Assembly (NCBI RefSeq): GCF_964204645.1
Contig: NC_134036.1
Location: 124,001 to 188,000, forward strand
Direction of reading: 5' to 3'
Source of the DNA: Tubulanus polymorphus
Lineage: Eukaryota; Nemertea; Palaeonemertea; Tubulaniformes; Tubulanidae
DNA length: 64,000 nucleotides
How positions within the stretch are numbered: position 1 is the first letter of the stretch; each line of letters opens with the position of its first letter. Below the pieces are notes generated by a model. It was not told the origin of the DNA, did no database searches, and saw nothing but the letters and a program-made list of their open reading frames with translations. Position numbers and translations under genes: made by a program. Positions 4,600 to 25,838 of the stretch are shown here, in pieces.

Positions 4600-7500
4600 T
4601 CAGTTATTGTCAGAATTACAACCTAAATTCAAACTTCCAGTTTTTACTTTTTCATTTATCAAATTATTTTTATTTACAATCAATTGTCCGTTTTTTGGTT
4701 CATGTTGCAATCCATTAACTGCCAGTATTTCAGGATTGGACACATCTTTACAAATATCCACTTCCATTGCTTCACTACAATCTGTATCTTGTTCCTTTGC
4801 CTCAACCATTTCTACATCTGTGTCATTTGTGGCACCACTATCTACAACCTGCTCATTCGTCTCAACACCTGTCTCATCTTCAATTACATCATCCATTTCT
4901 GGCCTTTCCTCCTTTACCTCATCAGTGTCTGGCCTTTCCTCATTTACCTCATCAGTGTCTGGCCTTTCCTCATTTACCTCATCAGTGTCTGGCCTTTCCT
5001 CATTTACCTCATCAGTGTCTGGCCTTTCCTCATTTACCTCATCAGTGTCTGGCCTTTCCTCATTTACCTCATCAGTGTCTGGCCTTTCCTCATTTACCTC
5101 ATCAGTGTCTGGCCTTTCCTCATTTACCTCATCAGTGTCTGGCCTTTCCTCATTTACCTCATCAGTGTCTGGCCTTTCCTCATTTACCTCATCAGTGTCT
5201 GGCCTTTCCTCATTTACCTCATCAGTGTCTGGCCTTTCCTCATTTACCTCATCAGTGTCTGGCCTTTCCTCATTTACCTCATCAGTATCTGGCCTTTCCT
5301 CATTTACCTCATCAGTGTCTGGCCTTTCCTCATTTACCTCATCAGTGTCTGGCCTTTCCTCATTTACCTCATCAGTGTCTGGCCTTTCCTCATTTACCTC
5401 ATCAGTGTCTGGCCTTTCCTCATTTACCTCATCAGTGTCTGGCCTTTCCTCATTTACCTCATTAGTGTCTGGCCTTTCCTCATTTACCTCATCAGTGTCT
5501 GGCCTTTCCTCCTTTACGTCAACTGTGTCTACCTTATTGTCATTTGCCTCATAAGTACTCGCCAGATCATCACACGTCCCTTCAACTTTTATCAAATTCA
5601 CATTAGACTCAGTTTCTATCTGATTATGACCGGTAGGTATCGAGATCTGATCATTATGTGTATCAGTAATTACTACATCATTTCCCTGAGAAATGTTCTC
5701 CGATTGTTCCATAGAATTCATCGTTTTATCAATTTCTGCCTCGTTTGTTTTAACTAAATCAGAATCAACTTCAGTTTTAACAACGACCGCAATTTGTGAA
5801 CTGATCGTATCATTTTGCAGTTCAGCATTCTCATTTTTAAGAGTTATGACATTAGATAGAATGTCTATTTTAGCGGGGTCAACTGTGGTGTCGACCAACT
5901 GATTCGGTACGAGTTCTAATTTTACGAGTTCATCGTTTATTTCCGCTTTCAAAGTAACCGTGCCGATATCCGGTTTGTTATTATGCGTTTCTAAATTGTC
6001 GTCCGAGCGACGAATATTCTCGTTTTCGACACCTTTGAGCGATACAGTTCCAGCATTGTCTTTAGCGCCATCTGTGTTTGAAAAACAAACACACGATTAG
6101 AATTATATTCTACCACTTGATACTATAACCTAACTACTATCTACTGTGTATAGGAAGGAAGGGATGCATGAATTGAACTTACCGCGATCTGAATCAGGTA
6201 TTTCAATGATTTCTAAAGGAACAACTTCGTTGACAATACTGCTTACAATTGTGCGACATATATGGTCAGGATCATCGGCGATTGGTTCTGAAAAATCAAC
6301 AGAAACATTACACATTGAACTGTGAACTCCCCTCTCAGATAGAACCCATCTCCCGGGAGAGAGTGAACCCACTGGGACCCATGATCTCTAATGCTATAAA
6401 CAGTATTTACCTTCATTAGATCGTTTTCGTTTTAAACCCAAAGCAGTAAAAATCGTTTGTGGAACTTCATCAGTGTCTATAAATAGAATGTCAGAAAACA
6501 AACTGATAGATAGAAATCAGAAAACATGTCTGGAGCCGCAGGGGTACATCAGGGGCTGCAGGGCGGGGGAGGGAGTACATCAGGGGCTGCAGGGCGGGGG
6601 AGGGAGCAGGGGGTACATCAGGGGCTGCATGTTGGGGGGAGAAGGGGGTACATCAGGGGCTGCAGGGTGGGGGAGCAGGATTCAAATCTTAACACAGAAC
6701 TGTGGAACTGGACTATGGTATTTATCCACTGGTTATATCTAAACAATTTTTCAGCAACTGCAGCCACAAACAGGTAATTGATTATACAGATTTATACTCA
6801 CTGGCGGTATCACACATATCAGGACTCACAGTTTCAAACACCTCTACGCAACGCGGAGCTGGACGAGTTTTATAGCACGAGAACTTATTACAAAATACTA
6901 AATGATGAGCTGTAAAATTATTAAACAGAATCAGCGAATCAGAGAAACAACTAACAATAAACATCGCAACAATAGAGAGCGACAAACTTACCGAGCGTGT
7001 TACCGTAGCGACTACGAAAACCGCACAAGCAGAACATGAATTCAGGTTGCGGATGTTCGAGAGGAATATCGAGGGTACCGTAACCGGCGTGATATTTCAA
7101 CATGTGCGAGGAGTAAGAGTTAGAACAACACGTCGCAAACCGACACAATGAACATTGTATGTATTTCCTGTAAATCAGATCATTAACTTTACTGCATTTA
7201 TTCTGTCATTGAAAATAGAGGATTCTTGTGAAAAATATGCTGGAATTTTAAAGGCACAGCATTTATTGTTAAGTGTATGACATCATGGCTCCTGAACTGG
7301 CAAGGCTTTCAATCTACCAAAAAATACAGAAACTTAATTTTGGCGTTATCTTCTATTCTTCACATTAGCTCGATATATTTCATAGCAATTATCAGCATTG
7401 ATAGAATATTGAAATCGTACTCTGGTAGAGGGCAGCAGATATTTTTTAAGGGGTGGCTGAATTTCATAGGGATAGATGTAAAAATTTAAAGGGGTGGTCG

Positions 7501-10500
7501 CCACTTGTAACCGACAGGACCACTAATTAATTCACCAAGCAAAGCAGCGAGGAAATTCTGCAGACTGAATGAAGATGCTGAAAAACGGATATTTCGTCCA
7601 GGGAGCAGGCGCAGTCTAATTACTACTCACTTATAATGTCCTCTAGACGACATCACTTTGGTACATTCGACACAGCGTAGATGACTGACTGGTTCTACAA
7701 TCTTCACAGACGACATTTCCTGCACTTTAGAGTGTTGAGGTACATTCAGTGATTTAATATGACTCGTTCCAACTCGACCTTTACCGCCACCTAGTTGGAT
7801 CATTACTTGTTCGTTCGATGTAGTTTTTCCTGTGTTTGAAATACCTGTAAATTCAGAATCATACGCTTTATTCAATAATATTCATTGTTTGAACATTTGA
7901 AAGTTGTTTCTTCTCAAGTTACATCCTTTTGAATTCAAACTACAATAAACCTCGTCCAACTTTATAATCTAATCCAATAATCCATTTTCTGATTGCCAAT
8001 GCCCTCAAGCTGGTTCCATAGTTGGTCTTAGACCGGTCTTAAATCTAAGCCCTGACTTTGGAACCGGTTCCACGGCCTTAACTTTTTCAAGGAGTAGCAA
8101 CTTGCTACAAACCATGTTATAGTTTTTGTAATTAAGCCAAGGATACAAGGAGAGAGGGGAGAGGGGGAGAGGGGGGAGAGGGAGAGAGAGGGAGAGAGAG
8201 GGAGAGAGAGGGAGAGAGGGAGAGAGAGGGAGAGAGAGGGAGAGAGAGGGAGAGGGAGGGAGAGGGAGGAGGGAGAGAGAGGGAGAGAGAGGGAGAGGGA
8301 GAGAGAGGGAGAGAGAGGGAGAGAGAGGGAGAGAGAGGGAGAGGGAGGAGGGGGAGAGAGGGAGAGATACTTACAGTTTCTACCGGTATCAGTGCGCCGG
8401 TTTGTCGCGTGATGCGTCGATTTATGGAATTTCAAATCGTTTTTCGTAACGAACACTAGTTTACACGCTGTACATTTACGACACGTCGAGTGAGTTTGAT
8501 GTCGTTGTAAATGTTGATAGAAACTCTGAGTTAAACCCCAGCCGTGACGCGACGACAGAGAAACTTTAAACACTTTCAAACAATAGAAACATAAAACATG
8601 TCGGGTTTTATCATGTTTCTGAAATAAATAAACAATCTTTCATGAGCAACTGAGTTGCTAACCACAAAGTTCTACGTAAAGATTTGACTGTACAGTCAAA
8701 TCACTTAATGAAATTCAAACCAACCGTTCCATCCCATCTGTACTGATTCCCAAATTCAAAATCAAAACCCTGTTACATTCAAGGCAAGTGTGGTGGGTTC
8801 GTAGTAACGGCCATTCGAAAATTTTAGCATAACATCAAATAAATAAGAAAATCAATTTGCTAGTTTATGATATAAATCTATACTAGAAATCGACTAATTT
8901 GGACCAATCAACTTTAGCCAACAAGAATGAAACTCTGAAATTCTTGCAGATTTGTTTTTTAGAATTCTGAAATTCTTGCAGATTTGTTTTTACAATTCTG
9001 AAATTCTTGCAGATTTGTTTTTATGCACAAGAGGACGATACTGAAGTCAGTTGTTGAATTTACCTTGTTGAAATGGTCGATGATATCGTCGTAAAGCGAT
9101 GACCTGAATGAACACAGTTGGCAGACGTACGGCATTTCACACGGTTTATGAACAGTTCTCATGTGAGCCGTCAATGTTCGATGAGTCGTGTGATCTTTCT
9201 CACAAATACGACAAACGAGTACACAACTATTACTCTGATGGACCTGTAATGTGTTAAACGAATAGAGAAATACTGAATGAGTACCCATAATGTTACTCAA
9301 AAACAGAAATAATAAATAGAGAGTTAGTGGGGTCGAGGTGCACCATGCCCACTCGGTCGAAGCGTCATCCTATAAAAACGATGTTTTTGGTGAACAAAAA
9401 ATGACCACCAGTCGGACATCTTGATTCTGATTGGGCCAATTTTTGTGAATACAGAGGTGTTTAGAGGTGTTTAGAAATACTGATAGGCATATTGCAAATG
9501 GATGGTGACAACCTCTATTCTGGGATTGAAATGAAGAGTCAACAAACCTTTTCGACGTGAGTTTGCATCTCAAATGGAGTATCAAATTGACGGAAACAAT
9601 GTTTACATTGAGTTAGATCATTCAAATCGATATTCTGTTGTTTCTCACTCTCGATATGCGCTCGCATGTGGATCATTACTTTTATATTGTTGTACAACAT
9701 TATCTGACAATGATAACACTGAAAATAGTTCGCAAAGACATTTCATTAGTAAGTTATAATGACAGTTCAGATTACATAAGTTTAACCCCTTCCGTGCTGA
9801 CTAATTTGTACTCGAAAGTGCTGGAGGTAATTTGGAAATTTTTCAAATATTCCAATAATGGGCATTCCGCTCTAGTTCATCTACACCGCAGTGCGGTGTA
9901 TTGTTACTTATTAATATTTCACTGTTTGACACATGCTGCCATCTTTCAATAGAGAGGAACCTTAATTACTAATAACTACATCAATACACCGCAATGTTTA
10001 TACTCTGCACTGCGGTGTAAAAACGCACTGAAAGGGTTGATATTTGACTGAAAGAGCTTTAGTGCATCTACACCACAGTGCAGTGTATTGTTAGTTAGTA
10101 ATATTTGAATATGCTGCCATCCTTAAATAGGTATGAAAACTAATTATTAATTACATCAATACACCGTAATGCGGTGTACTAGCGATGTTAATCACAGATT
10201 TATGCACCGCACTGAAAGGGTTGATACGATTGGAACTTACTTTAAATCGATATTCTCCGATCTCCTGAGATTCAATGAGCCCTTCCTGTTTACCGTAGTA
10301 ATACTCATCGAGAGGAACCCAACGTCCCGGGACCGAACCCAGAACTTCTACTTCCGGTTCTTCTTTCTTTTCCAACAACGTTAAAAGGGCTTTCATCGTT
10401 TTCGAGTTGGACTCGTCGGAGCCGGCGTTTAGTGAAGTAAGTTTGATACCGAGTCCGGACGTCCCTGGTACTGTATGTATCTCACCACCGGATGTCCCCA

Positions 10501-13500
10501 TCACCGTACGCTCCAGACTGGATGTCCTTGTCAATGGGACGGTACGCTCCACACTGGATGTCCTTGTCAGCGGGACGGTGCGCTCCAGACTGGATGTCCC
10601 TGTGGTACGCTCCACACTGGATGTCCTTGTCAGCGGAACGGTGCGCTCCAGACTGGATGTCCCTGTGGTACGCTCCACACTGGGTGTACCTGTCGTTGGT
10701 CCGGTATGCTCCACGCTGTATGTCCCCGTTTTTGTTATGAGACGTATTTTCACTATAATAAGACAGAGTGAAATTGTAATCGTGATTTAAAATTGACAAG
10801 AAATTTCTTACAAAAATTAAATGTGATGAAGAATCTTACTTTTAGATTTAGGAGGCCGACCTCTCTTCGCTTGTGGACGCGTGATCGTTTCAATTTCACT
10901 TCCATTCTATAAAACAAGGTGAAAGTTTGAGATATAAAACATACAGACATTCAGAGACTCAAATTCTATTTACTAAGCATGAATCGTTATTTGTCCGATA
11001 AAACTTGTGACATAACTGAACTCATCTATATTTTTGAGGCTCAATTTGTCGTTCTAATTCAATTCAAGTGTCAGTTGTCATCAACATAATAAAACTCAAC
11101 TAAACACAGAATATGATGACAATTAGTTTTACCTCATTACGTTGAGTGTCTTTAACAGTGAGCGAGGAATCACTGATAGATTTCGGTGATATATTCAATG
11201 ATTTATTTGAAGGAGAATCGATTATAACAACATCATCCGGCTGATCTTCCGGAATATCTGTTTATGAAATACAAATATCAACGTTACTCAAACGCAGCTT
11301 CATTGTGTCTTTAAGCGTGTTACTCGAGGTATAATAAACCGACCTGTTATTTTCTCCGTTCCTCGGTTTCCTGGCGACAAAGTCTTAGCGATCGGATTTG
11401 TTTTAAAACTAGAAGGTGTAACAACCCGAGCTGGTATCATAGGTGGCGCTACGGTCAACGGTTTTCGTACAGTTTTTAGATGCGCGCCGTTTACTGGTTG
11501 TTCACTAGGTGGCGCCGGTGTCTGTTGGTCGGGACGTCGCGCGCATTGATTGGTTTTCGTCGAGACTTTCGGAGATCTTGTTTCCATGGTAACGATGACA
11601 TCCTTATCGTCATCGTCGTCGTCAATAATGGTAACCACGGCGGTCGGCTTTAACGATTGATTCAACGCTAGAAATTATTTAACAATAAACACTGTTTAAA
11701 CCTGACGACGATGACCCCCAGCAGAGTTTTAAACCCGACGACAGATAAACAGAACTGTTGACCCCTAGCAGAGTTTTAAACCCGACGACGGTGTTAAAAA
11801 GTACTGTTGACCCCCGGCAGAGTTTTAAACTATTTACTTACGTTTTATGGTGGGTGATAAAACCTGATTACCGCTTGATTTCGGAGGAGCTGCAGTTGGA
11901 GGCGGAGGAACAACAGTCGGAGTTTTCCTTTTCAGCGTCTGCAATGGACTCCTTTGTGCGTGGATCGGAGATTTTAGCGGTTGTCGTGGACTGGTTTCCT
12001 CGTCATCATCATCTTCATCAATAATAATCGGTTCTACTCCTCGGTTTAACGTTTTATTCTGAAATAAACATTTAAAATACGTTTCATTTGACTTTTATAG
12101 ATGCAACAGGGGGAGGGGGAGTTAGGGTGAGTGAGTTAGGGGGAGTGGAAGGGGGAGTTAGGGGGAGTGGAAGGAGGAGTTAGGGGGAGTGGAAGGGGGA
12201 GTTAGGGAGAGTGGAAGGGGGAGTGGAAGGGGGAGTTAGGGAGAGTGGAAGGGGGAGTGGAGGGGGAGTTAGGGGGAGTGGAGGGGGAGTGGAGGGGAGT
12301 TAGGGTGAGTGAGTTAGGGGGAGTGGAAGGGGGAGCTAGGGAGAGTGGAAGGGGGAGTGGAGGGGGAGTTAGGGGGAGTGGAGGGGGAGTGGAGGGGGAG
12401 TTATGGGGAGTGGAGGGGGAGTGGAGGGGAGTTAGGGTGAGTGAGTTAGGGGGAGTGGAAGGGGGAGCTAGGGAGAGTGGAAGGGGGAGTGGAAGAGGGA
12501 GTTAGGGAGAGTGGAAGGGGGAGTGGAGGGGAGTTAGGGGAGTGGAGGGGAGTTAGGGGGAGGGGGTTAGGGGAGTGGAAGGGGGAGTTAGGGGGAGTGG
12601 AAGGGGGAGTGAGGGGAGTGGAAGGGAGTTAGGGGGAGTGGAGGGGAGTTAGGGGGAGTGGAGTTAGGGAGTGGAGGGGAGTTAGGGGGAGAGGGTTGGA
12701 GGGGAGTGGAGTGGAAGGGTGGAGTTAGGGGTGAAAATCTGAGTGCATCCTCCTGAAACGGAACTTATCTACACTTACTCTCACAACCGAATGATTCACA
12801 TTTATATCAGCAGTTTGTCTATGGTCATTATTATTTTTACGCATTCTTTTTATAGGTGGTGGTCCTCCAGGCAGTGGTCCTCCAGGCATTGGTCCTCCAG
12901 GCGATGGTAATCCGCCTCGATCCTGAAAAAACAATCAGTCAAAATATTGGAGATGAAATCCTACCATACCAGATAAATGGAACTGGTAGATATTGAGCTG
13001 TCTCTATGACGCACCTGGATGGGTGATCGAGGTTTCATACGTTTTCTGAAGCTTAAATACAACGTTGGGTCATGACTCGGATGTCCCGGGGGAAATATAG
13101 ATGGCACTGCGATATCTTTTAATATACGTTGTCTCGTTCCTGTAAAATCTTTTTCCTAAAAAATAAATATGAACAAAAAGTTTTAAGGGGGGAATCAAGA
13201 GACGAATTTTGAAGGACTTCTCAAATCCAAAATAGGCACTATGTGTTGGATATCAAAAAAGGCAAAATCATGTAGGCCAACAGTACTCCCACACTGAAAT
13301 GCACCAATCATCTTTATTGACAAAATTAAAAAGGGCACTCAAAGAAATTTGATAGACTTCAACAAGTCTCACAAGTTCCCAGGTGCCGACAATCGACATA
13401 CAATATTGAAATATGAGATTGAGATAAGATTGATGTGAGAGGTTTTACCTGGAAATGATCGCTACAAATATAGAACATTTCCGATCCGTGCGATAGTGTT

Positions 13501-13688
13501 TTTAGTGTTAACCGCGGATGCGCGATGATTTCAATCCACTTTCTAATCACCGCTAGTAACGGCTTGTTGCAGTCGCGAGGTTTCGGGATAATATGGAAGC
13601 TGATCGGCGACAGATGAATCGACTCGTTCGAGCGTCTATGATTCGTACAATTATGTACAATACACGAACACGTGTTGGACGTCTCCAT
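4600..13688 (-). CDS. POGZ: THAP + AT-hook + POGZ/ZNF280-type zinc-finger protein (full-length left copy)
   Basis: Seventeen exons, 5' to 3': 13688-13449, 13155-13015, 12922-12779, 12058-11842, 11667-11344, 11257-11133, 10906-10840, 10752-10241, 9718-9548, 9243-9064, 8618-8375, 7844-7631, 7167-6992, 6909-6802, 6476-6411, 6287-6183, 6071-4600. They total 4,506 nt (1,501 aa) with all phases consistent. Residues 1-100: THAP domain (Cx4C, IPKP, RKW, CSDHF, then AVPSIF from exon 2). Residues 176-400: acidic, Pro-rich, with SUMO-interaction-like motifs. Residue ~410: AT-hook KRGRPPK. Residues 591-955: POGZ/ZNF280-type C2H2 array including YVCQLCSFRSSLYDD, LCFYCLKVFK, a GKGRV linker, and QCSLCRFATCC, the region corresponding to POGZ's HP1-binding finger. 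Residue ~970: LKRKR, a possible NLS. C-terminus: 21 acidic decapeptide repeats. No CENPB or DDE domain. Probably a nuclear chromatin protein. The family call is strong; one-to-one orthology with POGZ is inferred. Confidence 0.85.
4902..5520 (-). repeat. Coding 30-bp minisatellite: acidic decapeptide repeats (left)
   Basis: There are 21 units of exactly 30 bp in the last exon of the zinc-finger gene, encoding (N/K)EERPDT(D/N)EV. Most units are nearly identical at DNA level, which implies recent expansion or homogenisation. The right copy has 19 units. Both strands stay open in several frames through the array, so long antisense ORFs here are artefacts. Confidence 0.93.
6535..6685 (+). repeat. 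Intronic G-rich tandem repeat
   Basis: About four imperfect copies of a 31-39 bp unit containing TACATCAGGGGCTGCAGGG and a G-rich run lie in the intron between exons 14 and 15 of the zinc-finger gene. The right copy keeps a shortened version near 44,465-44,545. Confidence 0.75.
8145..8370 (+). repeat. GA-rich purine tract beside exon 11 donor
   Basis: About 220 bp of nearly pure GAGAGAGG-type purine sequence sits within about 5 nt of the exon 11 splice donor, in the intron. On the transcript it is a CU-rich tract. It is longer and interrupted in the right arm (42,574-42,856). The long translated Leu/Ser/Pro ORF across it is a repeat artefact. Confidence 0.85.
9781..10224. mobile_element. piggyBac-like non-autonomous element (left), with nested repeats
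   Basis: The element begins TTAACCCCTTCCGTGC and ends GCACTGAAAGGGTTGA. These are inverted termini with CCC next to TTAA (one end degraded), as in piggyBac-type MITEs. Inside are two related units bounded by near-palindromes of the CACCGCAGTGCGGTG type. There is no transposase ORF. It lies in the intron between exons 8 and 9 of the zinc-finger gene and is shared with the right arm (40,614-41,059), so it predates the duplication. Confidence 0.6.
10450..10725 (-). repeat. Coding Ser/Thr-rich repeats in zinc-finger gene exon 8
   Basis: Imperfect repeats of 33 and 48 bp encode TSSLERTVPL and TSSVERT-type segments (about residues 430-510). The region is absent from the right copy, because the duplication breakpoint lies further 3' in the same exon. 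Confidence 0.8.
12058..12922 (-). other. Exon 3 of zinc-finger gene and following intron
   Basis: Exon 3 (12,922-12,779) encodes a Pro/Gly repeat (PGGPMPGGPLPGGPPP) followed by a basic patch KRMRK. The intron from 12,778 to 12,059 is almost completely filled by a G-rich minisatellite. Confidence 0.75.
12101..12730 (+). repeat. G-rich minisatellite filling an intron
   Basis: About 630 bp is built from AGTTAGGG, GGGGGAGTGGAGG and related blocks. The plus strand is almost free of C. Regularly spaced runs of four or more G make it a strong G-quadruplex candidate. The host gene runs on the minus strand, so the G-rich strand is the template and the pre-mRNA would be CU-rich. Confidence 0.9.
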
Positions 13689-16972: not shown

Positions 16973-19900
16973 TTAAACGATTATTTCACACATAACGTCT
17001 TCCTCTGATTGGCCGCCGTCTAATTCCCTTAGCAACGACGCTTCCGTACCACCGGTCTGTTGATCGTTGCTAGCGGCAACTGTAGCTATGTCGACTGATT
17101 GCTTGTGTAGTATATTAACGGCGGTTGTCTCGGTGATATCCTTCACGCTCGCACGGTGTACCAGACCGGTTTTATTACCATAGCAACAAAACAGCCAATC
17201 ATCTTCCAGTTCCTTAAGCACTAACATTATATCGTTCTTATTGAAGCTAAGTTGTTCGGTTACCCCGGCAACGTGGTAGCATAAACTCTGAACGTAACTG
17301 TCAACGAAAAAAAAAAGAGAAACAAAATCATATCGAATCGGCGCCATCTTTTCCGTATTGAATGAACTAAACGATACTCACCGTTTCGGAGCCGAGATTG
17401 ATTCGTCCATTCTCGGAATAGAGCGTAACTTATTACCGGCAGACGTCGTCTGTTTCTCCGTTTCACCACCAGGTGTCGTCACCGTCGTCGTCGGCTGCTG
17501 CTGCTGATCTAACAACAATTTGTCGAATACGTTTATCAAATTTTCTCCGATGCTCCAACGTTTCTGATCCGACAATCTCTCACCAGGTGGCAGCGTCGAT
17601 GAAATGTTCGGTTGCGACAGCGTTTTAGCTCCGAGGCTCGGGGTTTTCCCCGTCGTCGCTGCGGCGGCTGTTGCGTTGTTATCGAAACGATACTCGGTAA
17701 CGCCCTCTTTATAAACGGTTTTATCGTGCTCCGCTAGGTGGCGCGCTAGTTTCACTAACCACGTGTTAGTATCGAAGTCCTCGGCAACCGGCGTCGACGA
17801 CGAGTCGCTACCGTAAAGTTCGCTGTTTAATATCTGATTATTCTTGACGATTTTCTCCACGTTTTCTCCGCCGGTGTTCGTATTATTAGATAGTTTACTG
17901 TAATCGTTATTCTGAGGGAATATATCGCTGTTCTGTCCGATCGCCGCGAGATACATCGCCAAACCCTCCATATTCCCACCACCCATCGGAGCCGACACGT
18001 TGCTAGGCGACGCCGAGGAAGACTTGGAGAAGAAGTTCGCCAGCGAATAAACCGTTTCTATCGGCGGTAACGACCATCGATTGTTACTCGGTTGCCTAGC
18101 GACGGAATGAGGGGCGTATTCTTGTTGTAGTTTTTGACCGAGGTAATCCATGGCCGACTGTGATAATTGCGTTCCATTTTCGATCCATTCTCTCGCGTGT
18201 TGCACGTAACGCATTATGTCGTTATGGCGATCGATTTGTTCGACCCCCTCGTTTTGCATGCGACACTCGGCCTCCGAGCGATGCGGCCGCAGTTTCACGC
18301 CTTGCCCCTCCTCCGAGTCGGAGTCGTCCTCCTCCGACGCTTTGTTGCTTAGCGACGCGTTACGTACGAGTTTATATTCGAAGTTACATTCGATTTGAAA
18401 CGGAAGCGAAACGAGAGGTTTTACGATCTGCATCACTTCGTCGAACAAGTGCTGCCCCCTGTTGTTCGTTAGGATCATGAAGGCGTCGCCGTAGAAATGT
18501 TTACGCAACAATCGGTCCTGATTGTGAACCATTTTCATCCAATAAGGCAAAGTTTTCGCGCTGGAAATAAACGGACGAAAATTGATATTTGAGATCTCGG
18601 TATTTTCATGTATTTCGATGTATTTCAGTTTTGGATGTATTTTCATGTATTTCGATGTATTTCAGTTTTGAAAGTATTTTCATGTATTTCGATGTATTTC
18701 AGTTTTGGACGTATTTTCAATGTAACTTACTTCAATAAACCGAATATAAAAGCGTTGAATTTTGACAGAGTATTTCCCAGGTAAATTTGATGTTTCACTT
18801 CCTGTATGATATCGCTCAATCGTCGAGCAGAGGGACCTGCAACAATACAGACAGTTATAGTTATACATTCAAATCTAAGTCAATAACAACAAGAGAGTTG
18901 CTAAGAGGTTGGCTCAAGAAAACCGGCAGATGAATACCATAGCAACAATGAACTTATAATTGTCACTATGACAACTATCAACTGGTTAACTCTAACCAAC
19001 CTTTCAGCGACTGGAAAAAACTTACCGCTATCAATAGATTCCTCTATCAGTTTCCAGACGCTGTTTTTAAACTGGCCGAAAAAACTGTGAATTTTCGGTT
19101 TCAACCCGTCGCTAATCAGGTTAAAAACGGCCGGACAGAGGTGTTTTAGAACGAGTATTCCAACATCTGGAGAATCAGACGATCTTCCCAACTATAAATA
19201 CATCATTAAAATACAATATTAATACCCTGTAATTAAACACTGGAATTCACTCTGTTCGATTTTTACCTTCTCTTTATTAGCGCCGCCATTGTTAAAGTAA
19301 TTCACCAACACATCAACCGCGTGACTCAATTCTTTCACTAAAGCTGAAATATTATAAAACACCATTTATTTCTAAAAACATCCCTAAAACTCTCTTCATA
19401 GAGTAAATACACTCATTACCACAGTTATCAGTTCTTTCACTCAAAATGAGTTAATTTGCGATGTTTCAATTTTCAACTGAGGAACTGGATCCCGAAATGT
19501 GGAACTGAGTCCAGAACTGTGGAACTGGATTCTGAACTGTGGAACTGAATCAAGAACTATGGAACTGGATCCAGAATTGTGAAACTGTGTCCAAAACTGT
19601 GGAACTGGATACTGAACTGTGGAACTGGGTCCAGAACTGTGGAACATGGTAAATAAACTCACATTTTTTATTGATTAATTCCGTGTCAATGACCTCCTCT
19701 TCTCGGAAATTGTAAGATAAAACTCTAGTTGGTGACACGGTGAATTCCTGTGGAGGAGTTTCAGAACCGAACGCGCTATCCTCACTGGTATCTGACGGGT
19801 GACAATCATCTGTATATTCTACAATATCAATTATAAACATTAGTAACCGATGACAACAGTCAGTGACAGCGTGTGTCGGGGTGGTGTACGTACCGTGATT

Positions 19901-22900
19901 GTTGCAGCGGTTGTCATGGTGAAGCGGAGGTGGAGGAGGCAGTAATTTACTGGTCGATGGTTGTTTTTTAGGAGATGTTCTCGGACTGCTGTACGGTGAA
20001 TGATATCGAACTTCCTCCGCAAACTTCACCGATTTCTTATTCTTACGACCGTGGCAACAGTTACCGTGGAAACAAGGCATAAATGGTATGAAGCCATATG
20101 GAACCATGAATTGCGGTACGGTATGCTGACAGTAGGGGGCGACGCTACGGTCGTCGTAGTGAAACGCGTTTGGTCGCGTACGGTGATAATTACATTGTTG
20201 ATTGATGTCGTCACATGACCCAAATTCAGCTCGTTGACGACGAGATTTCGAGCGCGATCGATGAGCGATTCCGTGATCGTTTTCACGCCACTCGCTAGGG
20301 GGCGCTGAACTGTCGTCGGACGCCGTGATATCCATATCGGAATACGCGTGTGACATGTGATTATCGACCTGGTCGGTACATGTAGGTTTACCAGTAGGTG
20401 GCGCCATACACACCGGCGGTGTACTGTTACGTCTCGTACTCGGTTTAATACACGGTTTTAACGGCTTCTTGTTCGAACGTTGTTGTTGCGAATCCCGATT
20501 ACGGACGTCCTCTGAACTGCACCACGACGACGGACGACACCTCGCTGCGGCCGATACCGGACGACCGTTACAAGCGTGTCCCGGCGGCGGCGGTGGTGGA
20601 TAATCATACATATAGGGGGCGCTGGTGAGATTCTCGTAGGAACCGTAATAAACGGGATATGGTATAAACTGAGGAGGTGGATATCCGTGATGGGGACAAC
20701 ACGGAGCTCCGTAAGAATGATGATGATGAGGAGGATATCTATGATGCTGATGATGATGAGAAGAATGATTAGATGAATCGTTACTGATTTCCATCGCTGA
20801 TGAACCGGTAGAACTGATACCTGCGTCGCTAACCGCTCCGTCGCCGTCACTGTCATTGTTGTTGACGTTACGTTGTGCGTTCGTCACTTTCTTCTTAGTA
20901 CCGGTTCTGGTTGGTAGAGGGCGGTTGAGATTGGTTTTCTGCGGTGTAGTTGTATCCGAGTCGATACTGCTCCCGCTGTCGACCGCGTTACCTCCGACTG
21001 ATTGTATCTGTCTGTTCCTAGGTGGCGCTACTTTCACCGATGTACCGTCGATTCTGGGAGGTTTATCGGGAGGCGACGTCGCGAGGTTTTTATTTTCTAA
21101 CCGTCCACTCGCCGATCGGCTGCGATTGGTTGGAATATCTCCGTTGACGAGCTTACGACCTCTCGTATCCGAGCAACTCGACGACGACATCAGATCATTG
21201 TTGAGGAAACTCAAATCGGGCAGATTTCTGTTCAGATACATGAAACTGCTACTGAGAGGGCGCTGTCTCTGTAAATTAGATTCCGGTTTCGGTGGATGCA
21301 GATTTGTCGGCATACTCAGCCGTTTACTGCGTTTAGACAAATAGAACGCGCCCTCGGTATCGGGGTCTCGTCCGCGTGGTCGACGCAATACGACCTGCTC
21401 ACTCGCCGCAGCAGTCTCCTCCTCACTCGCCGCAGCAGCAGTCTCCTCCTCACTCGCCGCAGTCGGCTCATTGCTATTTAAATCGTTATGTAACGATGTC
21501 TGTAATGATTTCTGCGATTGTGAACCTCGTTTCAGCGAATCCGATGTTTGTATCGATTGGTCGATCGTGTTGTTAAGGGAGATTTGTCTATTGTTGCGAG
21601 TTACGCCGACGTCGAGCTCGTCTATATCTGTTTTATCGAGATTCCCGTTCGATGAACTGGGAGACATGTTTTTAGGCGATAACGAAGCTATGATCTCCTC
21701 TCTAAACGGGTTCGTTAGGGGTATATCTAACGGACTCTGTAGTAACGCGTCTGTTGTATTGGACTGGTTAAGCGAACTTTGACTGGTTACCGACACCGAT
21801 ATCGTTCCATCCGATTCGTTTTGTTTCCCCGTTTTAGTTTTAACCGTCGTCGCTTCGCACGAAAAGTTTGTTCGAATAAACGGCATCAGAGAGACCTCGG
21901 CAACCATCGCCGGGTTACGACAATCATCGGTAACCGGGTTACGATCCGGGGAACTGACATTCTTCCAACATATCTTACCACTAGGTGGCGCACTGGCGTA
22001 AGTAGTGAAACTGGCGAGGCTGGAGATGCTACGTTTCTGCGGAGAGGGCGTCCTCGACTCGAGGTTGTTGATCGCGTAGCTACAACTAGTCGTAGTGTTA
22101 CTGCTCGTACTGGTATCCGTGGATACGTCTAACAATGCCGACTGCGTTAACGAGCTGGTATTTGAATCGCGATGCATCGTGCGGCTACTCGCGACTGACG
22201 ACGTCAGACCGGATCTCGATAGTAACCCGTCATGTGACATCATCGACGTGATCCATTTCTGATATAGAGGAGACGGCAGGCGACACCTGGTGTCGTCGTT
22301 ATCAGTCGATTTCGCTCGACGGAATATCTCGTATAGCGTAAACGAATGACGTTTATTAGTTTTATCGTCGGTCGTCGCGGTTCCGTTAAACGTTCTCAGC
22401 TCAGGAACGTTCTCTTTATTCTCGGATAGCGATTGAGTTATAGTCGTACACGAGCTGCTCATTAAACTCGGAGCACTTTTCCATTTAATCGAAGACGACT
22501 CCGAATAAATCGATTCTTCTTTCTTCAAGAACTCTTTCATTTCGGTGACTTTCTGCCACGAGGTCAGCGGAACCGGTTTTTTCTTCACCTGTTGTCCCCA
22601 GGTCGTTAGAGTTTTACTCGCGCTGATGTCGTGATCCGACGCACTCTTACCGACCACGTTCTGTTTCAAGGTCGTAGTCGTAGCGACGACCTCCGGTTGC
22701 ATACAGCGTCGTTCGATCTGTTCGAAGTGATGTAAAGAATCATCAGTACTTCGATCCTCAGTGAAACTCATGTCTAACAACGATTTCTCCGGACAATGAA
22801 TCGTCGCTAGGTTACCGCGCATTTTCTCTAGTTCGGCGATGAGGAAACGTTCCTCGGCTTTCTGTATCTCTTCCATCAATCGATCCTCGGCCCCCTCCGA

Positions 22901-25838
22901 ATAACTCCCCGACGAATCCTCCGAATCTGTTTTTACCGTCGCGAACGTCATCAGCTGTTCGTCCGTCGTCGTCGCGGCGGCGGCCGTCTGCTCGTCGTTG
23001 CTAGGTAACGTATCCGTAGTCACGGAGACGCTGTGTAAATCGTTTTGAACGTTGTTCCAGCGTTTGAGTAGTTTATTAGAATGACGCTCGACGGAGACCT
23101 GAGCCAGACCGTCGTGGTAACTATACATCAGTTTATGCGCACAAGGTGGCGCTACTTGTACGCTATCGGACGCGGTCAGACGTTCCTCCATCAGTTTCTG
23201 ACAGCCGCAATCCTCCATACTCTCGTACGCGAACGAATCCGTTAAACTTTCCAGCGATGAATTCAGATTCGGTTGTAACTCGTCGAGTAAACCCGATTCG
23301 CAGTCGTTCTCCGTCTGCTCGTCCTCCGAGTCGCTGGCGCCACCTACGTTACCGTTCCACTCCTCGGCGACCGCCGCCACTCTACGTCTCACTCCGCTGT
23401 CGTTCGCGCTCCAACTCTCGCCGTCCACGGCCATCGCCGACATATCCGAGTCGTCGTGGCAACAATCGTCGCGGTTACTACAACAAGCGACTGTCTCATC
23501 GTCGCTTACGGTTTCATTGTCATCTCCTAGCAACGGTTCCTTCTCGTTAATCGCGTAATTCTTCAATGACACGTGTAACTGAACGGCAGCTTCTGATTGG
23601 TCGAATTCTCCTTCGGAATCGGAATGTAGTTCCCTAGCGACCAGGTTACCGGTATTGAACTTCTCGACTACGACGTCATCGTTTACCCATAATTCCTCAT
23701 CCTCTCCCTCGTCCTCGTCAAACTCACCGTCCGTTGATTTATTCGGGCTCCGATCGAACGACAGCATGTAATTCTCTTTCTTAGCGCAACAAGAATCCAA
23801 CTTAAAATTCTCCTCGGTCGTCAAGCTCGTCGTCAAGTCCGTACGGTCGAGACTATCGGTTGAGAGGTAGGTGGCGCCACGAGGGGTACTGTGTGTAGAT
23901 GAGAACAGCGCCGCGCTGCGAGAGCTGTGCGCGCTGTGAGTAGATGAGAACAGCGCCGCGCTGTGGTACGACTGGGGAGAATAAAGCTGTTCGTCTCTTA
24001 ACTCCGGTAAATCAGACATCTCGGCGGAGCTGGTCGGGTCGTATCCGCTCGATCGACCGCCCTGCGAACTCGTCATCTTCTCGCTCATACTCAACTCGAC
24101 GTCGCGGTAACCGTTCAATAAACACGTCTCAGATTTCGTCCTCAGTAACGTCATATCGTTGGCGCGGTCCTCGCCGTAGTCCGGTCGCGGTCCGTTCCCG
24201 CCTCCGTAGACCGCGAAGAACGACGATATATTCTCCGATTGAAACGTTTCCATGTCGATCGCGTCGTAATTAGACGAGAAATCGTCGTCATAGAAATACC
24301 CGCTGCTCGTCGACGCTTCCATTGTTGAAGAGTAAGATTTCGTTACCGGGACGACCGGATGCTGGTGGCATACGGGGCTACTGCTAGCTTCATCCCTCTC
24401 TTCGTTCTGCTGCATCATCTGTTTCTGCGGCGACCGAACCTATCACGAAATAAAATATCATCACGTTTCGATATATCGAACAATTAACGGTTAATACTCG
24501 AAATATAAAACATGATTTTTCACCTGAGAATATCAGAAATATCAACATAGTAATCCAGGACTCAGCGAGAGACTCAACGAGGACTCAGTGAGAGACTCAG
24601 TGAGAGACTCAGCGAGAGACTCAGTGAGAGACTCAACAAGGACTCAGTGAGAGACTCAGTGAGAGACTCAGTGAGAGACTCAGCGAGAGACTCAGCGAGA
24701 GACTCAGTGAGAGACTCAATGAGAGACTCAACTAGGACTCAGTGAGAGACTCAGTGAGAGACTCAGTGAGAGACTCAGTGAGAGACTCAATGAGAGACTC
24801 AGCTAGAGACTCAGCGAGAGACTCAGTGAGAGACTCAACGAGGACTCAGTGAGAGACTCAGTGAGAGACTCAATGAGAGACTCAGCTAGAGACTCAGCGA
24901 GAGACTCAACGAGGACTCAGTGAGAGACTCAGTGAGAGACTCAGTGAGAGACTCAGTGAGAGACTCAATGAGAGACTCAGTGAGAGACTCAGTCAGTAAG
25001 AGACTCTCTGTCTATGTCACACACTGTAATATTCTCTTGACTCAGTTCTGAGAAAGAACCTGGATTTACAACACATGACTCATACCGACACCGAGAACCG
25101 TCGTCCGGCAGCAGACGGATCTGAGCGCGAGACAGAGACCTCTTCAGATCAACACAAATAACATCAACAAAAAATAACGTTTCAACAATATAAAAACATA
25201 GTGACTAGCCGTTAAATATTAAACATTCTTTAACTGATTGTTTTACTGTGAATATCTCAGTCCAACGCATGGATATCAAACAGTAATAGTTGAGAGATAG
25301 AATGAGTGGTTTCTTTTTTTCTATTTGTAAATATCAATGATTAGTCATTTCATATCAATGATATCAGGTGTTTTTAAACATATCTGAAATTCTTTGCGCG
25401 CTGAGCACAGTTAAACAAACCGCAGGTGGTATGTACGTCCTATAAAAACCTGTTCATATAATCGCAATCTATTACATAGAGATATAGAAGTATTTCAACA
25501 TAATATTCATCAAATAATAAACTGGACCCCGGGTTCTATAGACTGAGTATCAAAGTCAACCCTAGGGGTAAATCATTAACCAGCATCGTAGTAACAATGA
25601 GAAACCATGGTATTAGCTGGTAGATTTTAAAATGTTCTCAGCTAGGATTATTTTGCCAGCACATCTCTGATCTTCGCCCCCCTCTCACCCCAAACACCTC
25701 CCCTCACTCCCCACTCCCCCCTCTCACCCCAAACACCTCCCCTGCTCTAGTATAAACAGTCAATGATTGACTATTGATTATTGTAGATTGTATGAATCTG
25801 GTTTCTCTGGGGATTGAGAAGCAAGAAGCAGCAGAAGC

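Follow-up and report, generated by a model that had tools for sequence, protein, structure and literature searches.

The vertebrate POGZ proteins examined start at a short motif that we have named the ME motif, have no THAP domain and carry a pogo part, consisting of HTH_Tnp_Tc5 and DDE_1 domains, at the C-terminus. THAP1, THAP2 and THAP11 are short proteins without POGZ fingers, which share the THAP domain and are matched by the family THAP profile used here. In our study, a gene joining an N-terminal THAP domain to a POGZ/ZNF280-type zinc finger array with an HP1-binding-type (HPZ) double finger has been analysed in a 64,000-nucleotide stretch of DNA (hereafter, the window) from the palaeonemertean Tubulanus polymorphus (contig NC_134036.1, positions 124,001 to 188,000). 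With reasonable probability, this single gene encodes a chromatin adaptor of the POGZ/ZNF280 family in which a transposase-type THAP forms the N-terminal DNA-reading head, and its most likely role, as judged from the sequence, would be that of a DNA-reading HP1 adaptor. The established part is confined to the anatomy, that is, the gene model, the THAP domain, the fingers, the HPZ ligands, the AT-hook core and the acidic tail.

The gene was rebuilt from its splice sites (Table 1). All 16 introns are GT-AG, the exon chain is in phase and the product has one terminal stop; the exons number 17 and not nine, as had been counted in the first-pass annotation. The public protein of T. polymorphus, LOC141913879 isoform X3 (1,491 amino acids; P0001 in the numbering of our family survey), was the top match of the finger-array search and is identical to the model over 1,214 residues from the N-terminus and 286 residues at the C-terminus, only the acidic 10-residue repeat being different. 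When residues 1-127 were scanned alone, the THAP domain matched PF05485 over all 87 profile positions with 52.0 bits (cut-off, 23.9; E=1.2e-13), and the family THAP profile scored 51.7 bits on the exon 1 piece and 20.2 bits on the exon 2 piece. A one-piece scan of residues 1-1227 missed the THAP at E<=1 and the precomputed annotation of P0001 likewise has no THAP tag; hence, automatic tags undercount this domain. The alignment of 10 family THAPs has shown C9, C14, P35, W51, C75, H78, F79 and P98 (Tubulanus numbering) to be invariant, and Tubulanus agrees with the THAP signature pattern of C2CH ligands plus P, W, F and P. No second THAP cassette was found in the window, where the next-best match of the family profile had an E of 1.1. 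The claim with which the analysis began, that THAP and POGZ/ZNF280 fingers are joined in one protein, is borne out by the in-phase GT-AG chain together with PF05485 and PF25429.

The POGZ double finger profile PF25429 was matched at residues 843-882 with 47.8 bits against a cut-off of 27 (E=2e-12; scan of residues 1-1227). The finger array of 371 residues shows an identity of 52-53% with that of the four lophotrochozoan relatives examined, as against 33-38% with that of three arthropod and three vertebrate-type relatives; it is collinear before the HPZ in 10 relatives, the blastp alignments spanning 300 to 370 of its 371 residues at 33-53% identity. In the alignment of 11 proteins, Tubulanus included, the C-x2-C, the H, the second C-x2-C and the first terminal His of the HPZ are conserved in all, and the last His is displaced in Limulus. 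In POGZ, the ligand change H840A leads to a loss of HP1alpha binding and repression, according to PMC7673123. The first-pass annotation had also stated that the HP1-type finger is kept, which the zinc ligands confirm, and that heterochromatin targeting may be ancestral; such ancestral HP1 targeting is plausible, being supported although not proven by the ligand conservation. It had further found no DDE region, and in agreement with this, no pogo HTH or DDE match was obtained at E<=1 in residues 1-1227, residues 1228-1501 lying outside the scan and consisting by eye of acidic repeats. The Tubulanus protein is not POGZ in the strict sense, as the C-terminal HTH_Tnp_Tc5 and DDE_1 were not found in residues 1-1227. 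Vertebrate POGZ nevertheless shares with it the finger array (mostly 34-37% identity) and the HPZ ligands, and ZNF280D (Eublepharis, P0087) is like it in the finger array (33%), the HPZ and, by eye, an N-terminal hydrophobic-acidic stretch.

The family survey covered 141 distinct proteins (the best 120 of 562 matches from one search and 54 from another, the latter drawn from a capped set of candidates), which were assigned by name, or else by similarity and tags, to an invertebrate type (47 proteins; P0001-P0036, P0121-P0130 and P0141) and a vertebrate type (94 proteins; P0037-P0120 and P0131-P0140). With the family profile, a THAP was found in 11 of the 47 invertebrate-type proteins listed as against none of the 94 vertebrate-type ones. 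The bearers are Tubulanus, Lingula, Ostrea, two Mytilus, Capitella, Limulus, Centruroides vittatus, two Ixodes and one tick-like protein; ten of them were used to build the profile and so match it by construction, and independent PF05485 support was obtained for all eleven (from our own scans, and from a precomputed tag for Mytilus californianus). When 261 proteins were searched with this profile, just two further matches emerged, both of them noise (an arthropod fragment, E 0.7; a vertebrate POGZ, E 0.95). In Centruroides, the protein of one species has the THAP whereas that of the other (P0035) has none. No deuterostome invertebrate or cnidarian is named among the 141 proteins listed, vertebrates dominating the lists. 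As for a family survey, which the first-pass annotation had proposed as a check, THAP with PF25429 is present elsewhere in protostomes also, although most invertebrate-type representatives have no THAP. The fusion is an instance of host-transposase fusion on the POGZ/ZNF280 body and is not unique to Tubulanus. In full-text literature searches, which did not cover most subscription papers, bioRxiv and supplements, a fusion of THAP with POGZ or ZNF280 was described in none of the papers listed, as judged from titles and the openings of abstracts.

Lingula LOC106172366, Ostrea LOC125661824, Mytilus LOC134719102 and LOC127721543, Capitella CAPTEDRAFT_222950, Limulus LOC106460211 and Ixodes hexagonus P0126 combine THAP, fingers and HPZ like Tubulanus, with a finger identity to it of 50-52% in these lophotrochozoans, 38% in Limulus and 34% in I. 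hexagonus. Unlike Tubulanus, the THAP-bearing relatives retain the ME motif, and those from arthropods have a Merlin-like domain in addition. The ME motif (40 residues, LMMECxEExLSPxQ...; profile from 23 protostome sequences) is a common and not a defining feature of the finger family. It lies at the very start of the vertebrate POGZ and ZNF280D proteins examined and is present in most relatives checked; its profile matched 14 of 15 control proteins, three vertebrate ones at 17.8-22.1 bits, P0001 being the exception. In the nemertean Lineus longissimus, LOC135498810 has a finger array 53% identical to that of Tubulanus, whereas the isoform examined has the ME motif and no THAP.

The POGZ family gives the impression of having collected parts of transposons repeatedly. 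The POGZ proteins scanned carry the C-terminal pogo domains, and in the fish pogzb proteins of Neoarius, Tachysurus and Hypomesus (P0133, P0134 and P0140) the HPZ and the pogo part are separated by a full-length piggyBac transposase domain; three further fish proteins have a precomputed piggyBac tag. Eight arthropod members (P0034, P0035, P0036, P0126, P0127, P0128, P0129 and P0130) have a conserved Merlin/IS1595-like domain before the fingers, which is probably inactive or degenerate. PF12762 (gathering score 27) matched 26 of 36 relatives at E<=10 (best E 1.5e-4) and two of the eight full-length arthropod proteins in scans at E<=5 and E<=10, the three bit scores shown (19.1, 14.7 and 13.1, that of the best match not being among them) all lying below the gathering score. 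The structure predicted from a 36-row alignment (36 shorter relatives out of the best 120 of 220 matches) has an RNase-H-like fold with the order b-b-b-a-b-a-b-a, and the full-length AlphaFold model of the Timema relative was poor (predicted local distance difference test, 41). None of the best 120 of 220 matches bears a PF12762 tag or a Merlin name, so the Merlin link rests on the Pfam scans and the fold. For this domain a viral fold library gave nothing at E<=0.001, and NCBIfam gave no transposase match on five arthropod proteins. Over the 141 listed proteins the Merlin-like profile picked out the eight arthropod ones at E<1e-113 (seven of the eight had been used for the profile and match it by construction), any other match being at E 7 or worse; it did not match the window protein at E<=100, and no relation emerged when the THAP and Merlin-like alignments were compared as profiles (E 0.097, probability 0.6%). 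The suggestion of the first-pass annotation that two branches had made different transposase captures holds in so far as the family branches do carry different transposase domains; two is too few, since Merlin/IS1595-like and piggyBac domains exist besides. In Dreissena, one member (P0122) has an HTH_23 match (E 3.8e-9) at residues 627-662, upstream of the fingers, and a second member (P0030) has no such tag.

Two histories of the THAP head have been rated equally likely on the sequences, and each can be held only tentatively. In one, a single THAP would have been joined in a protostome ancestor to a body with ME motif and fingers, upstream of both, and lost later in insects and others; vertebrates would never have had it or would have lost it, and the THAP differences would be due to fast divergence only. 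In favour of this history, the THAP is N-terminal and precedes the ME motif in Ostrea, Mytilus, Capitella, Limulus, Centruroides vittatus and the tick proteins, and those of the five chelicerates form a cluster (support 0.86) in a small THAP tree which resolves poorly. However, the order is reversed in Lingula, where the ME motif precedes the THAP, and in the same tree the Mytilus THAPs group with THAP2 and THAP1 (0.79 and 0.86). Moreover, THAP identity is 21-39% in cross-phylum family pairs, no more than the 23-39% between family members and THAP1/THAP2 (sequences which we take to be human, in an alignment differing from the cross-phylum one), and a single capture is therefore unproven. Between Ostrea and Mytilus, the fingers are 77% identical as against 29-32% for the THAP. 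According to the other history, different lineages took different THAP cassettes, by new insertions or as alternative first exons, onto the same conserved body. This would be in line with the pair P0011 and P0012 (M. trossulus/M. californianus), whose fingers are 99%, THAPs 57-58% and next linkers 55% identical. Here the identity shifts abruptly, immediately before an internal methionine, to 92-99% from that methionine to the end of the LGLV region, which takes in the ME motif, the disordered linker (92%) and the fingers; the acidic tail is 81% identical, and the M. coruscus protein starts eight residues upstream of the same methionine and has no THAP. The Mytilus THAP would reflect either unusually fast change or the use of different THAP exons. 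The extensive, independent expansions of THAP reported for Capitella and Crassostrea (PMC10027918) also favour repeated capture. On the other hand, the two Mytilus sequences may represent different isoforms, the window has a single THAP and the chelicerate THAPs group together; in two Ixodes the THAP is 81% identical, slightly above the linkers (65-78%), which means that low THAP conservation is not general. The tree and the identities are compatible with one or several captures.

With respect to function, the proposed THAP-headed HP1 adaptor would select DNA sites through its THAP, AT-hook and fingers, and the HPZ finger would recruit HP1 and repressive partners to those sites, as in POGZ, with the acidic tail possibly acting as an unstructured, polymorphic and flexible spacer. 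A number of observations weigh against this role. THAP is absent from 36 of the 47 invertebrate-type representatives, including both insects, and the head is hence not essential to the family, although every 90% cluster is represented by a single isoform, which makes absence in the others weak evidence. No ME motif was found in the whole window, skipped or upstream exons of the gene included (best 4.0 bits), and THAP can also serve as a protein-binding module. Further, fly HP1c is reported to depend on its PxVxL-binding chromoshadow part for binding to Woc and Row and POGZ is said to need no PxVxL motif for binding HP1, so HP1 may be bound in a different way. It is conceivable but unlikely that the fingers alone are responsible for targeting, the THAP being a degenerate passenger or else a module for protein binding. 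The many representatives without THAP would suit such a passenger, as would the better conservation of the fingers than of the THAP in most pairs (it is about equal in three distant pairs, all of Ostrea with a tick-type protein or Lingula with Centruroides); free decay, however, would not be expected to leave the C2CH ligands and the P, W, F and P intact in 10 of 10 family THAPs. Far less probable still is an annotation artefact, with the THAP exons forming a separate upstream gene. The NCBI model may itself be a prediction, but it is identical to our in-phase GT-AG chain outside the repeat, and the same pairing occurs in 10 other proteins, nine of them from four further phyla; on the exon chain and these ten THAP-bearing relatives the separate-gene explanation was rejected.

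If the adaptor role is correct, several acquisitions of transposase parts by the conserved finger/HPZ body would have retargeted the same body to new sites, and a swap of the transposase part with the body retained may redirect HP1 without a new adaptor. In a wider and more tentative proposal, the finger-HPZ body may be a standing acceptor for at least four kinds of transposase: THAP in protostomes (perhaps on several occasions), a dead Merlin/IS1595-like domain in the arthropod ancestor, pogo in vertebrates and piggyBac in fish pogzb. The protostome THAP head would then be exchanged or fast-changing on a near-frozen HP1-recruiting body, as if tracking moving DNA targets, e.g. transposon ends.

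Table 1. Features of the THAP-POGZ/ZNF280-type gene of Tubulanus polymorphus (window positions)
Feature	Positions	Strand	Remarks
Complete coding gene, 17 exons, 1,501 amino acids	4600..13688	-	Splice-site rebuild; equals P0001 outside the repeat
THAP domain, residues 9-101	13093..13664	-	PF05485 and invariant residues; split between exon 1 (13688-13449) and exon 2 (13155-13015)
Two acidic stretches with hydrophobic cores, PIIIDEDDDDEE from residue 185 and VVTIIDDDDDD from residue 258	11600..12028	-	Exons 4 and 5
AT-hook core QAKRGRPP	10850..10873	-	Exon 7; KRGRPP is residues 411-416
POGZ/ZNF280-type finger array, residues 567-954	6802..10312	-	End of exon 8 to exon 14
HP1-binding-type (HPZ) double finger, residues 846-886	7089..7674	-	Exons 12-13; PF25429; ligands align with vertebrate POGZ and ZNF280D
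Post-finger motif TIFTALGLKRK	6424..6462	-	Exon 15; resembles protostome xLGLV[KR]K
Acidic 30-base tandem repeat array (EERPDTDEVN units)	4885..5517	-	Exon 17

The array in exon 17 was located by Tandem Repeats Finder at 4880-5556 (period 30, 22.6 copies), and 20 EERPDT[DN]EV units are present in the window model as compared with 19 in P0001; it is a coding minisatellite, the acidic tail differing in length from that of the public protein by one unit. A pattern of the xLGLV[KR]K type is found in 10 lophotrochozoan and chelicerate relatives. SUMO-interaction motifs are not claimed, as 14 overlapping patterns occur in the whole protein and 500 shuffles gave a mean of 5.5 and a maximum of 16. Introns 3 and 11 contain long purine-rich tandem arrays (window 12116-12715 and 8150-8367). 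Open reading frames on the minus strand are also found nearby at 16973-24439, one of 1,629 amino acids (19550-24439), and a stretch at 16973-17377 is SH3-like by eye; a Pfam scan of three of these neighbouring frames, including the one of 1,629 amino acids, gave no match at E<=0.01.

POGZ, a neurodevelopmental-disorder gene, owes its name to the pogo part. Judging from the family survey, the old common core of these proteins would be the fingers and the HPZ, whereas the transposase parts would be lineage-specific additions, so the invertebrate members could reveal the function of the core itself. The repeated retargeting of one chromatin adaptor by means of DNA-binding parts from transposons has been made a testable question.

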